The notes beneath the pieces are model-generated. The model was not told the origin of the DNA. It saw nothing but the letters and a program-made list of their open reading frames with translations, and did not search any database. From assembly GCF_016735595.1 (NCBI RefSeq), contig NZ_JAERRB010000001.1:62001-126000 (forward strand): 64,000 bases of DNA, given 5' to 3'. Both the position numbers and the translations under genes were made by a program. Of this stretch, positions 12,980-23,950 are shown one piece after another. Source of the DNA: Chryseolinea lacunae (GTDB taxonomy: Bacteria > Bacteroidota > Bacteroidia > Cytophagales > Cyclobacteriaceae). How positions within the stretch are numbered: position 1 is the first letter of the stretch; every line of letters begins with the position of its first letter.

Positions 12980-13933
12980 TCAGGAAATGAGCGCCCGATA
13001 GCGATCCACAAACCCCGAGAAGGTTTTGTTTTTTGCATACAACACACTGAACACCGCGATGCCCAACGCCGCGATGGCAATGCCTGCAAACACATCCAGG
13101 ATGTAGTGGTGTCCTGAATAAACCGCGGCAAGCCAGATGCCCACCGTGATAATGCCAAACACAAATGTCATGTATCCCATCCTGCTTTTCCAGGCATAAT
13201 AAAACACCACCAACGGATAGGCCGAATGCAGCGAAGGCATGGCCGCAAACACATTGGAACCCTTTGTGTATAGTGATTGAAAAATGGTGATGTTGAAAAA
13301 ATGATCGAAGCGAACAAGACCGGCCGTGTTGCCGCGGGTGCCCGACAAAAATTCAAATCCGTGTTCCTTCACATACCAAGGCGGTGCCGCCGGATAGGAA
13401 TAATACACCACAAAGCCCAACAAGTTTGTTAACAGGAACGTGAGCGCAAACTTCAGAAACTGTGCTTTGTCGGTAAAGAACAAATAGGTACCAAACGCCA
13501 GAGGCACCGGAATCCAGCAGAGATAAAACAATCCCGACACCACGTCGCCCGCGGCAAAGCTGTGTTTGTCCCAATACTCGTTTGGTGTGAGCACCGTGTT
13601 GCCTTCTTTAATACCAAACAGTTTTGCTTCGGCATGATAGAGGCCTTCGATGTGCACATCGTTGAAACGATAGTTTGGAAACGCCTTCATGTAGTCGAAG
13701 ATGATCCAGAACACAATGAAGACGGAAAAGCCGAGTATGAATTTACGGGTTGGTACCGACGCTATATAGAGCGCGCTAAACACAAGAACCAACACCAATT
13801 GATCGGCCTTGAAGCCGAGCAAAAGAAACGAAGTCAACAAATACGTTGCTGAGATAATGCCGGCGGTCATCGCGTGCCGCCAGAATGCTCCGCGGGTCAC
13901 TGCTTCCACCGGGTAGTCCAGGTTATTTTTCAA
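12980..13933 (-). CDS. PAP2-family enzyme, inositol phosphorylceramide synthase-like
   Basis: Predicted to move phosphoinositol from a phosphatidylinositol donor to ceramide, the last step of the operon. The 317-residue multi-pass membrane protein shows the AUR1/IPC-synthase-like motifs: YSYPAAPPWY (about 178-187), MPSLHSAYP with H236, and YSGHHYILD with H276 and D280 in the family's catalytic spacing. The likely start is a TTG overlapping the hydroxylase gene by 11 bp; an internal ATG at 13870 would remove part of the N-terminus. A 6-bp stem hairpin spans the stop codon (12977-12993). A generic PAP2 lipid phosphatase is the alternative, but context favours IPC synthase. Confidence 0.82.
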   Translation of the reverse strand: MKNNLDYPVEAVTRGAFWRHAMTAGIISATYLLTSFLLLGFKADQLVLVLVFSALYIASVPTRKFILGFSVFIVFWIIFDYMKAFPNYRFNDVHIEGLYHAEAKLFGIKEGNTVLTPNEYWDKHSFAAGDVVSGLFYLCWIPVPLAFGTYLFFTDKAQFLKFALTFLLTNLLGFVVYYSYPAAPPWYVKEHGFEFLSGTRGNTAGLVRFDHFFNITIFQSLYTKGSNVFAAMPSLHSAYPLVVFYYAWKSRMGYMTFVFGIITVGIWLAAVYSGHHYILDVFAGIAIAALGIAVFSVLYAKNKTFSGFVDRYRALIS

Positions 13934-14540
13934 AATCCGATCCGAATATTTTATCCCACAAGGCAGAGCTCACACCATAGCCCTTGTTGGGGTCGCCATA
14001 GTGATGCTGCATGTGGTGTTGCTTTAATTTTTTCCAGAATGCGCTTTTAAACGTAGCGTGGTGCATGGCATAATGCGATATGTCATAAAAAAGATAGCCC
14101 GCAATGAACGCCGCGAAAAACGCGGGCACCCATAAGGCCGGCATTAACCACGCAAACAAAAAGTAAAATCCGGTAGACAGCGGAATGCTCACCGACGGGG
14201 GCAGCACCAGCCGCATGGCGTCGTTGGGATAGTCGTGGTGCACGCCGTGGAAAATGAAATGCAACCGGCTTCCCCACTTCGACTTGGGTTCGAAATGAAA
14301 GATGAAACGGTGCATGATGTATTCGGTGAGGGTCCAGAACAACAGGCCACCGCCTGCGCTGGCAATGAACGTGAGCACATCGTTGTGCAACACAAAAACG
14401 GCGCGGTACATAAAGTACAGGATCACGGGGATAAAAATGAACAGGGGCACGCTGAAATGTACTTTTGAAAGCGGTTCCAACAGATCGCTTTTGAACATAC
14501 GCGTCGATTCCTTTGCGTTGGATACATAACTCTTCTTCAT
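13923..14540 (-). CDS. Fatty acid hydroxylase-superfamily membrane enzyme (sphingolipid hydroxylase)
   Basis: Di-iron membrane oxygenase, 205 residues from the ATG at 14540, which leaves a 10-bp gap after the DUF4833 gene. The histidine boxes are complete: HRFIFH (77-82), HFIFHGVHHDYP (94-102), DISHYAMHH (154-161) and HHMQHH (175-180). The HGVHHDYPND box is typical of the Scs7/FA2H type that adds a 2-hydroxyl to the ceramide acyl chain. Its place between ceramide-forming genes and the IPC-synthase-like gene fits that role. The exact carbon hydroxylated is inference. Confidence 0.88.
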   Translation of the reverse strand: MKKSYVSNAKESTRMFKSDLLEPLSKVHFSVPLFIFIPVILYFMYRAVFVLHNDVLTFIASAGGGLLFWTLTEYIMHRFIFHFEPKSKWGSRLHFIFHGVHHDYPNDAMRLVLPPSVSIPLSTGFYFLFAWLMPALWVPAFFAAFIAGYLFYDISHYAMHHATFKSAFWKKLKQHHMQHHYGDPNKGYGVSSALWDKIFGSDFEK

Positions 14541-14550
14541 GACCTCTAGA

Positions 14551-21627: not shown

Positions 21628-22745
21628 AATGCTTTTTCAAAAATGCGATAGCGTTTGTAGGGCACGCCCTTGATGTGCTGGAGTGCCGTGTTCATCAGGT
21701 CGTTGTTTTCCAGAATCCAGGACGCTTCCGCACGCTTGTATTTCTTGCGGCGATAGGCTTCGATGATGAGCGCATAGAAACACGCTTCGATGCCCAGCTT
21801 GCGATAGCCGTCCAGCACGCCCAGGGCCAACACGCGGATGCCGTTGATTTTCTTCAATCCAAAAAGCAATTTGAACAAACCAAACGGCAACAGTCTTCCT
21901 TTGCGGATGGTGATGAGCAATTGGTTGATGTCGGGAATGGCCAGCGAGAAGCCGATCACTTTTCCGTCTTTCTCGGCCACCATACAAAAGTCGGTGTCGA
22001 GAATCATCTTCATGTCTTTGGCGAGGTAGTCGAATTCCTTGTCGGTCATAGGCACAAAACCAAGGTTGCGGTCCCACGCCGAGTTGTATACTTCGCGTAT
22101 CTTCACCACTTCTTCGTCGAAGTTCTTTTTGTTGACGGTGCGCAGTGTGATGCCTTTGTTTTTCAACCGGGCAATCAACGCTTCCTTCAGGCGCACAGAT
22201 TTGTCGTCGTAGCCGTCTTCGCCAAAGCGATAGGCCACGAGGTCCACTTTCTTGCGAAACCCGGCCTGGTCCACCAGCGACTCGTAGTATTCCTTGTTGT
22301 AGGTCATCATGGCAAACGGCGGCGAGTCGTAGCCTGCAATGAGGAGACCACACGTTTCGTTTGTCGAGAAGTTTACGGGACCGATAATGGTTTTCACCTT
22401 TTGTTCGCGCAGCCATTTTTCAGCTTCCTGAAACAGGAGCGCGTTGATCTCGCCATCGTTCACTGCATCATAAAAACCAAAGAAGCCATCTTCGGCTTCG
22501 TTGAATTTGTTGTGATTGTTGTTGAGGATGGCGGCGATGCGGCCCACGATTTTGTCTTTATCGTAGGCCAGAAAGAGCTGAAGCTTGGAGTGCTCGTGAA
22601 AAGGATGTTTGCCCGGCGTTAAGAGATCGCGCTGTGCAATGAACAACTCCGGCACGTAGCAGGGATCATCTTTGTATAACTCATGAGGAAAATCTATAAA
22701 AGCCGCCAACTGCGGTTTTGAATTTACGGGCACTACTCGCTTCAT
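21624..22745 (-). CDS. GNAT-like acyltransferase, candidate bacterial ceramide synthase
   Basis: A 373-residue protein with a GNAT-type fold signature in two halves: [21 protein letters not shown] with GFFGFYDA near the N-terminus, and [20 protein letters not shown] with [16 protein letters not shown] near the C-terminus. Its start overlaps the serine palmitoyltransferase stop (ATGA) and its stop overlaps the reductase start in the same way. Bacterial ceramide synthases described in Caulobacter are GNAT-like and sit near spt and cerR. Predicted to N-acylate 3-ketosphinganine. The substrate is inferred from context; other GNAT acyltransfers are possible. Confidence 0.75.
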
Positions 22746-23950
22746 CGTATACGTTCTTTAATTTTCAGCACGCCCACTTGCCGGAACGTGAGGGCCAGTT
22801 TTTCGATGGCTTCTTCAATCTGGCTAAAGGTGTGTGTGGCCATCAGCGAAAAGCGGAGCAGCGAGGCTTGCGAGGGCACGGCGGGCGATACCACCGGGTT
22901 CACAAAGATTCCCTGTTGCTGCAGCAGGCTGGTGACCATAAAGGTTTTTTCATTGTCGCGAACATAGATGGGGATGATGGGGCTTTCGGTTTCGCCCACA
23001 TCAAATCCTTCTCCTCTCAGCAAGCTCAGGGCATAGCGGGTATTGTTCCACAATTGCTCCATGTGCTGGGGTTCGGTTTCCAGAATATCGAGGGCTGCAA
23101 TGACGCTGGCCGCCGAGGCGGGTGTCATGCTGGCGCTGAAGATGAGTGAGCGGGCCTGATGCTTCAGGTAGTCTATGGTGTCGGCATCGCTGGCCACAAA
23201 GCCTCCGAGCGACGCCAGCGATTTGCTGAACGTGCCGGTGATGATGTCCACCTTGTCGTCGAGGTTGAAGTGTGAGGCTGTGCCGGCACCTTTGTGGCCG
23301 ATCACGCCGAGACTGTGGGCATCGTCCACCACGATGGTGGCGCCGTATTGGCCGGCGAGGGCTACAATTTCGGGCAGCTTGGCAATGTCGCCTTCCATGC
23401 TGAAAATGCCGTCGACGGCAATGATCTTGATCGACTCTTCGGGCAGCGTGCTGAGACGGCGCGCGAGGTCGTTCATGTCGTTGTGCGCATATTTGATGAC
23501 ACGCGAAAACGACAGGCGCGTGCCGTCGTAGATAGACGCGTGGTCGTATTCGTCGAGGATCAGGTAGTCGTTGCGACCGGTGAGGCTTGACATCACGCCC
23601 AGGTTCACCTGGAAGCCTGTGCTGAATATGAGGGCAGCAGGTTTGCGTGTGAAGGCCGCAATGCGGTTTTCCAGTTCGATGTGGATGTCGAGGGTTCCGT
23701 TCAGAAAACGCGAACCTGCGCAGCCCGTACCATACTTCTCGATGGCCTTTTGAGATGCCTCCTTAATGCGCGGATGGTTGGTCAACCCCAAATAGGAATT
23801 GGAACCAAACATGAGTACGCGCTTTCCATCGATGATCACCTCGGTGTCCTGAGCTGACGAGATGGGCCGAAAATAAGGATAGATGCCCTTCTCTCGGGCC
23901 TCCTTGGCCGCTGTGAAATGGGCGATCCGGGCTTGTAAAAGTTTGTTCAT
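22742..23950 (-). CDS. spt: Serine palmitoyltransferase (alpha-oxoamine synthase family)
   Basis: PLP enzyme condensing serine with a long-chain acyl-CoA to 3-ketosphinganine, the first step of sphingolipid synthesis. The 402-residue soluble protein has the alpha-oxoamine synthase layout: GSNSYLGL, H137 in [14 protein letters not shown] (D209, H212) and the PLP lysine K243 in [15 protein letters not shown] and BioF share the fold, but its lead position in an operon with ceramide, inositol and hydroxylase genes supports serine palmitoyltransferase. First gene of the operon, preceded by a 380-bp AT-rich region. Confidence 0.9.

Follow-up and report, generated by a model that had tools for sequence, protein, structure and literature searches.

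A conserved eleven-gene cluster in Chryseolinea lacunae with a predicted route to hydroxylated inositol phosphoceramide

Introduction

Here, we analyze a stretch of 64,000 nucleotides from the bacterium Chryseolinea lacunae (NCBI RefSeq assembly GCF_016735595.1, contig NZ_JAERRB010000001.1, positions 62,001 to 126,000 of the forward strand), hereafter the window, with an emphasis on eleven open reading frames on its - strand, from position 23950 down to 12980. These genes probably constitute a single operon for the de novo synthesis of hydroxylated inositol phosphoceramide (IPC), each reaction in this organism being predicted from sequence. The arrangement is a real, conserved variant of a known pathway that is common to many bacteria; new are the grouping of the genes, the built-in hydroxylase and two unexplained companion proteins, whereas the enzymes themselves are of known kinds. 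The cluster gathers the predicted bacterial genes for a yeast-like, hydroxylated inositol sphingolipid into a small set and makes it possible to test directly which enzyme forms 2-hydroxy ceramides in bacteria. Proteins were assigned to families by Pfam and NCBIfam models with curated cut-offs, as well as by matches to solved structures.

Gene content of the cluster

From 23950 downward, the genes encode serine palmitoyltransferase (SPT), a GNAT-like acyltransferase, a short-chain dehydrogenase/reductase (SDR), myo-inositol-3-phosphate synthase (MIPS), a PgpA-type phosphatase, a GtrA protein, a DUF5686 protein, a CDP-alcohol phosphatidyltransferase, a DUF4833 protein, a fatty acid hydroxylase and a PAP2 protein. 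The successive junctions, SPT first, measure -4, -4, +42, +9, +10, -14, -26, +15, +10 and -11 bases, the extremes being a 26-base overlap and a 42-base gap; the latter separates SDR from MIPS, at the boundary between the ceramide triad and MIPS. An earlier note on this DNA had described eleven same-strand genes with overlaps or gaps of at most 42 bp, and both this layout and the eleven family names hold up, although the note passed over the non-enzymatic members, namely DUF5686 with its BamA-like model and DUF4833 with its beta-rich model and putative signal peptide.

The first three genes form the ceramide triad. SPT (22742..23950, - strand) scores 731.7 bits against NF047600, above the curated cut-off of 640, carries the DDAHS and TFSKS motifs, the latter with the pyridoxal phosphate (PLP) lysine, and matches solved SPT chains (8guh/3a2b) at 597.7 bits versus 240.6 bits for cysteate-C-fatty acyltransferase (CFAT; 28eh), which places it among the CFB-type SPTs. 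The GNAT-like N-acyltransferase (21624..22745, - strand), a putative bacterial ceramide synthase, is assigned from PF00583 and linkage to SPT: its gene directly follows SPT in all five loci fetched by SPT (L182-L186; 27-60% identity). In the same loci, the extended SDR (20635..21627, - strand; PF01370, 1.4e-31), a putative 3-oxosphinganine/3-oxoceramide reductase, is the third gene of the triad (40-50% identity). The identities of the ceramide synthase and of the 3-ketosphinganine reductase are putative and rest on gene order.

The inositol module begins with MIPS (19267..20592, - strand), a PF07994/PF01658 protein that matches 7nwr at 552.4 bits, the next best match reaching 211.8. It is followed by the PgpA-type phosphatase (18808..19257, - strand; PF04608, 3.9e-38), which is encoded between MIPS and phosphatidylinositol phosphate (PIP) synthase, as expected of the BT1525 type, and is a putative PIP phosphatase because of the deletion of BT_1525 in Bacteroides thetaiotaomicron (PMC9246714). 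Next come the BT1524-like GtrA-family membrane protein (18426..18797, - strand; PF04138, 1e-15) and, beyond DUF5686, the CDP-alcohol phosphatidyltransferase (15121..15894, - strand), a PIP synthase of the BT1523 type that scores 406.2 bits against NF052561 (cut-off 350), matches the PIP synthase structure 6wm5 (2.4e-22) and carries, at residue 100, the motif D..DG..AR...G...D...D, kept in 50 of 50 homologues that are at least 45% identical. The last gene of the cluster encodes a PAP2-type, BT1522/AUR1-like candidate IPC synthase (12980..13933, - strand) that matches the solved AUR1 9vj3 (4.5e-11), with alignment over GL-R-D, PSLH and HH...D. The PSLH and HH...D residues, which we take to be catalytic in AUR1-like enzymes, are kept in 45 of 45 homologues; the narrower pattern S.HS fits 31 of the 45, as the residue after PSLH is A or C in the other 14.

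The hydroxylase (13923..14540, - strand) is an FA2H/Scs7-type protein of 205 aa (PF04116; Scs7 4zr1, 3.4e-35), with the start set at the ATG at 14540, not at the GTG at 14600, because homologues align from the ATG. Homology to FA2H/Scs7 extends over the whole catalytic domain, with 74 of 186 aligned residues (40%) identical in yeast Scs7. The protein keeps H244, H249, H268, H271, H272, H326, H330, H345, H348 and H349, presumably the metal ligands of Scs7, and these ten histidines are invariant in an alignment of 27 rows. Elsewhere, the window genome encodes a second fatty acid hydroxylase (G000:C24:429988-430563; 35% identical), a paralogue of a type also found in SPT-less genomes, e.g. G003-G005.

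Distribution of joined clusters

The neighborhoods of MIPS genes were compared in 98 loci, consisting of 80 named loci (the best of 579 confirmed) and 20 further ones, less two duplicates (L063, identical to L037, and L072, identical to L040). We kept the 71 loci with at least 4 kb upstream and at least 7.5 kb downstream of MIPS and set aside 27 for short flanks; several genera are repeated among the loci, and the shares given here are not prevalence. The gene-presence thresholds, as well as the 500-bit threshold for DUF5686, were chosen after the matches had been inspected.

In 29 of the 71 loci, the ceramide and inositol modules are united, and 28 of these 29 are collinear with the window, on one strand, which excludes a chance arrangement. 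The SDR is present in 23 of the 29, and all eleven genes are held by 13, two of them from congeners of C. lacunae. The earlier note had presented the fusion of the two modules as a feature of this DNA; they are indeed joined here, but the joining is not peculiar to this genome. Complete sets occur in, among others, Pontibacter ummariensis, Rufibacter psychrotolerans, Chitinophaga sp. YR627, Pedobacter ghigonis, Pedobacter ureilyticus and Paraflavitalea sp., and Rufibacter hautae holds all eleven genes at its second MIPS (L175, a locus outside the 71). More broadly, the gene set is found, mostly in the order of the window, in Pontibacter, Rufibacter, Chitinophaga, Pedobacter, Mucilaginibacter and others. 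The thresholds leave outside the 29 both L055, where the cluster is split in two (compare L176), and L107, where GNAT is at 30%. Another 12 loci contain the inositol module without SPT, and of the remaining 30, 25 show MIPS alone by these thresholds. A search by the titles and the beginnings of abstracts of at most 20 listed papers per query, a coverage that excludes figures and subscription papers, found no paper on the joined cluster.

For wider counts, we used a phylum sample of 395 genomes, assumed to be identical across the MIPS, hydroxylase, SPT and DUF5686 scans given their equal counts and identifiers, with two candidates per genome scored for the DUF5686 counts and at most four for the SPT counts. 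MIPS (E 1e-60 or better) is present in 60 of the 395, the genome of the window included. The class to which the window belongs contributes 98 genomes (87 with a match and 11 without, counted from the DUF5686 scan).

Two reordered joined clusters, L098 and L107, have the order PIPS-MIPS-PgpA-GtrA-DUF5686-SPT-GNAT-SDR-DUF4833-IPCS (PIPS and IPCS denoting PIP and IPC synthase) and come from metagenome-assembled genomes labelled Bacteroidales and Chlorobiota. An 8.2-kb contig labelled Beijerinckiaceae (L071) carries nine cluster genes in window order at 43-76% identity and is probably a misassigned Bacteroidota contig.

A proposed route to 2-hydroxy inositol phosphoceramide

In the pathway that we propose, SPT would condense serine with an acyl donor, and the GNAT-like enzyme and the SDR would perform the N-acylation and the reduction to dihydroceramide. 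The CDP-alcohol transferase would convert CDP-diacylglycerol to PIP, the PgpA-type phosphatase would convert PIP to phosphatidylinositol (PI), and the AUR1-like PAP2 enzyme would transfer phosphoinositol from PI to ceramide. An O2-dependent 2-hydroxylation of the (dihydro)ceramide N-acyl chain, either preceding or following the transfer of the headgroup, would be carried out by the di-metal hydroxylase of the Scs7 type. The inner-membrane protein GtrA, the secreted DUF4833 protein and the outer-membrane DUF5686 barrel would be companions, most likely involved in membrane handling or export. The view of the earlier note that a ceramide module, a Bacteroides-type inositol module and an FA2H-type hydroxylase come together at this locus is well supported by the family, structure and motif matches.

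Ceramide as the substrate of the hydroxylase is suggested by gene distribution. The hydroxylase lies within the cluster in 25 of 29 joined loci versus 0 of 12 inositol-only loci (Fisher 2.3e-07, ignoring shared ancestry), and its presence in the former and absence from the latter point to ceramide. We also hand-picked 52 genomes, a non-random set of cluster carriers and their relatives: 32 of them have a hydroxylase match of at least 240 bits, in each case together with SPT (E 1e-120 or better), as against 0 of the 11 that lack SPT, shared ancestry being uncorrected. Within the class of the window, the hydroxylase is found in 9 of 18 genomes with SPT versus 1 of 80 without, again with shared ancestry uncorrected. 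Five of the nine hydroxylase-less SPT genomes in this class sample belong to families f23 and f24, which we take for gut anaerobes, unable to run an O2-dependent enzyme.

Several observations weigh against the proposed pathway. The GNAT-like protein has no strong family match (PF00583 at 6.5e-05), no NCBIfam match and a PDB match at chance level (E 0.87). The PAP2 protein scores 331.9 bits against NF052609, under the curated cut-off of 480, and so falls outside the BT1522 type as that model defines it; its assignment therefore leans also on PAP2_3 (Pfam) and the AUR1 match, and judging by this match and the catalytic residues, it may still work as a phosphoinositol dihydroceramide synthase. 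Six genomes (G426, G446, G450, G455, G463 and G464; loci L043, L074, L080, L087, L116 and L125) contain the inositol and IPC synthase genes without SPT at E 1e-120, so that the PAP2 enzyme does not necessarily use ceramide as its acceptor in every genome. The hydroxylase is missing from 4 of the 29 joined loci and from 9 of the 41 genomes with SPT in the set of 52, three of these nine having below-cut-off SPT; in two Sphingobacterium genomes (L173, L174), it stands apart from the other cluster genes. Across the phylum sample, the hydroxylase (E 1e-50 or better) is found in 81 of 395 genomes and SPT (NF047600 over the cut-off) in 18, with both in 9, and 71 genomes outside the class have hydroxylase matches at that level without NF047600 SPT. 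Finally, Sur2-type C4-hydroxylases also belong to PF04116. A hydroxylase family strictly linked to ceramide, considered as a candidate generalization, is rejected phylum-wide on the counts of 81 versus 18 and retained as a within-class tendency.

Co-transcription of the eleven genes is what we infer from the tight junctions and the conserved order. They might instead comprise two or more adjoining transcription units, for example SPT-GNAT-SDR followed by MIPS onward, given that the largest gap, of 42 bases, falls exactly at the boundary between the triad and MIPS and that each module occurs elsewhere without the other. The other junctions, however, overlap or nearly so, the joined loci other than one share a single order on a single strand, and a conserved upstream block sits at the head of SPT, which together leave separate units as a somewhat unlikely arrangement.

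The hydroxylase could also act on the acyl chains of glycerolipids, free fatty acids or sulfonolipids and merely be carried along with the cluster. Its phylum-wide excess over SPT is consistent with such a role, as are the second hydroxylase and two CFAT-like genes for sulfonolipids in the window genome (L205 on G000:C2 and L206 on G000:C11). However, 9 of the 10 hydroxylase carriers in the class sample have SPT, none of the 12 inositol-only clusters includes the gene, and no hydroxylase of at least 240 bits is found in the six SPT-less genomes, which bear CFAT-like genes along with the inositol cluster; we therefore regard another lipid as an unlikely substrate. Sulfonolipid production is possible in those six because of their CFAT-like genes: the protein of G464 matches solved CFAT 28eh at 528.8 bits, and its counterparts in the other five share 63-91% identity with it. 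The two CFAT-like proteins of the window genome are 67-69% identical to that of G464, suggesting that both lipid classes may be made.

A 2-hydroxylase acting on the N-acyl chain also has to be distinguished from a Sur2-like C4 sphinganine hydroxylase, the product of which would be a phytosphingosine-type IPC instead of a 2-hydroxyacyl IPC. The shared Pfam family, the length of 205 aa, which leaves no space for a cytochrome b5 domain, and the co-occurrence with SPT would all fit Sur2. Against it stand the 40% identity over 186 residues to Scs7, an enzyme that hydroxylates the fatty acid of ceramide, the stretch HF..HG.HH..P.D..RLV.PP in common with Scs7 and the presence of all ten presumed metal histidines, so that a Sur2-like activity appears quite improbable. 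Lastly, the SPT-like gene might be a CFAT and the operon a source of sulfonolipids, as the two enzymes share one PLP enzyme family and CFAT-like genes are present in these bacteria, but this is rejected at the sequence level and deserves hardly any credence, given the bit scores of 597.7 versus 240.6, the NF047600 score over the cut-off and the separate CFAT-like genes of the window genome, to which the G464 protein is far closer than to the window SPT (37%).

Comparison with known systems

The proposed route resembles that of yeast Aur1 and Scs7 in combining a PAP2-type IPC synthase with an Scs7-like hydroxylase. It differs from the yeast route in that PI would be made in two steps via PIP, as in Bacteroides, in that a GNAT-like protein takes the place of the eukaryotic ceramide synthase, and in that the hydroxylase comes without cytochrome b5, whereas Scs7 has a cytochrome b5 domain. 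The ceramide genes of Caulobacter reportedly (Stankeviciute et al.) comprise SPT, bacterial ceramide synthase and CerR. As among the ceramide genes of Caulobacter and Bacteroides, SPT of the window adjoins a GNAT-like acyltransferase and an SDR, a likeness that for these two proteins is one of gene order; unlike them, the module of the window is joined to inositol genes.

The inositol half represents the published pathway of BT1522-BT1526 in B. thetaiotaomicron, a homologous operon whose genes encode MIPS, the PgpA-type PIP phosphatase, GtrA, PIP synthase and IPC synthase and were found to be needed for PI and IPC by deletions, thin-layer chromatography (TLC) and mass spectrometry (PMC9246714, PMC8791184). 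Deletion of GtrA left inositol lipids unchanged by TLC in one study (PMC9246714) and lowered IPC while raising PI in the other (PMC8791184). The vicinity of the inositol cluster also includes BT_1527, a carboxypeptidase-regulatory-like gene (PMC9246714). In contrast to the window, where the triad heads the operon, Bacteroides has SPT (BT_0870) and the reductase (BT_0972; PMC9278070) at distant locus numbers; the window operon, moreover, includes DUF4833 and the Scs7-type hydroxylase, and the word "hydroxylase" is absent from the main text of PMC9246714.

An alternative inositol cluster of B. vulgatus and Prevotella, with an NTP transferase, a CDP-alcohol transferase and a HAD protein, has the same proposed product class (PMC9246714), whereas the window would use the PIP route. 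At L182 (973-9603), a locus of the same order as the window, SPT-GNAT-SDR-DUF5686 are followed by an NTP transferase, a protein of 289 aa that matches no Pfam family and a CDP-alcohol transferase; judged by its genes, this locus is a ceramide module joined to an alternative headgroup set.

The earlier note suggested that the gene set would enable the cell to produce 2-hydroxy IPC. This is plausible, but published accounts of ceramide phosphoinositol already exist for Sphingobacterium (PMC9246714, PMC5824009), including ceramide phosphorylinositol reported from Sphingobacterium HMA12 (PMC5824009). The lipid class is the same as that proposed for the window, whereas the hydroxylase orthologue in Sphingobacterium is apart from the cluster; in HMA12, it is 57% identical and lies on a contig different from that of SPT. 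At five Sphingobacterium loci (L083-L086, L091), a distant CDP-alcohol transferase match (29-32%) is the only one of the eleven window genes near MIPS. Naka is said to have found, in 2003, that part of the Sphingobacterium ceramide phosphoinositol carries 2-hydroxy acids.

Companion proteins and possible export

The protein encoded at 15869..18439 (- strand) combines CarbopepD_reg_2 (PF13715) with DUF5686 (PF18939) and is a predicted outer-membrane beta-barrel. Its predicted structure is of moderate confidence (pLDDT 79, pTM 0.66), and Foldseek retrieves BamA as the best match (E 5.7e-09, ~10% identity), with a TM score of up to 0.55 on the target (bare BamA barrels) and 0.24-0.29 on the query. 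The Omp85/BamA superfamily is defined by a C-terminal 16-strand barrel and POTRA domains; DUF5686 models as a BamA-like barrel, with POTRA domains not evident in the model at pLDDT 79. The close DUF5686 type (at least 500 bits) is present in 16 of 18 SPT genomes versus 4 of 80 others in the class (Fisher 7e-13, ignoring ancestry), and at a threshold of 435 bits, these counts become 17 of 18 versus 7 of 80. Of the joined loci, 28 of 29 contain DUF5686, as do 7 of the 12 inositol-only ones; at L182, it comes after the ceramide triad although the headgroup genes there are different ones.

The DUF4833 protein (14551..15105, - strand; PF16117, 2e-44) is likely secreted, with a signal peptide read by eye. 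It models as a small, beta-rich protein (pLDDT 89), and a comparison of its fold with the PDB gave no match with an E of 0.001 or lower. DUF4833 occurs at 24 of the 29 joined loci and at 6 of the 12 that have the inositol module without SPT. No paper was found on either DUF5686 or DUF4833 in the literature searched.

The BamA-like model of DUF5686 and its tracking of SPT in the class suggest that the operon may also serve surface delivery and, together with the apparent signal peptide of DUF4833, that it may encode export besides synthesis. We tentatively raise the possibility, which we still regard as doubtful, that the operon is a "make-and-surface" unit, with enzymes plus a dedicated outer-membrane route for 2-hydroxy IPC. 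Just as tentatively, GtrA would then be the inner-membrane member of such a unit, the secreted DUF4833 protein a partner and the DUF5686 barrel an outer-membrane device for insertion or flipping, the whole being a counterpart, for sphingolipids, of lipopolysaccharide export. The passages covered name no transporter of bacterial sphingolipids to the outer membrane, and a search for one yielded a single paper, whose title concerns a different subject; if DUF5686 and DUF4833 serve the same lipid, they would be named candidates for this transit. The hydroxylase and the DUF5686/DUF4833 pair are the parts of the cluster with the most to gain from experiment.

Flanking sequences

A block of ~100 bases 5' of SPT is conserved in two congeners and contains TACTTTTG (24074..24081, - strand), which we take to be a -7-like promoter element of the Bacteroidota type. 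In the window, TANNTTTG occurs 24 times against an expectation of 27.65 and hence shows no over-representation, and generic scans for sigma-70 promoters and terminators yielded no excess over shuffles. The upstream neighbor is a large FG-GAP/UnbV gene that ends 381 bases from the operon, and the downstream neighbor is a TetR gene oriented toward it. Two other proteins of the window (50560-52863, 768 aa; 60040-61776, 579 aa) have no Pfam match at E 0.001.

Patchy occurrence and possible transfer

Two congeners carry the operon within the same flanks as the window, whereas three others have neither MIPS nor SPT at the thresholds used, so that 3 of 6 genomes of the genus have both and the block appears to be present or absent as a whole. 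The flanking TetR gene has no match in the latter congeners (G003-G005) at E 1e-20, and therefore no clean empty site can be read. In a tree of MIPS+PIPS+IPCS, the window group clusters with three rows from a different family, including one of Flavisolibacter (support 88/87), whereas in a quick rpoB tree it shares a clade with Hymenobacter, Pontibacter and Rufibacter. For MIPS+PIPS+IPCS, a constraint that keeps the Cytophagales rows together is not rejected for seven rows (approximately unbiased test, p 0.099) and only weakly rejected for six (p 0.042); for SPT+GNAT, such a constraint is not rejected (p 0.357). The G+C content of the operon, 0.519 versus 0.526 for the remainder, gives no hint of transfer. 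Transfer of the cluster between families into the lineage of the window is thus possible, being suggested by the patchiness and the MIPS+PIPS+IPCS tree, but not established.

The inositol half is plasmid-borne in Hymenobacter volaticus (L215) and Spirosoma oryzicola (L216), with PgpA, GtrA, DUF5686, DUF4833 and PAP2 annotated and the MIPS match unannotated. The 20-21 kb shown of these two loci, for which the gene table is incomplete, include neither SPT nor the hydroxylase. In Spirosoma oryzicola, the plasmid set is followed by a START-domain gene, the product of which is a possible lipid binder.

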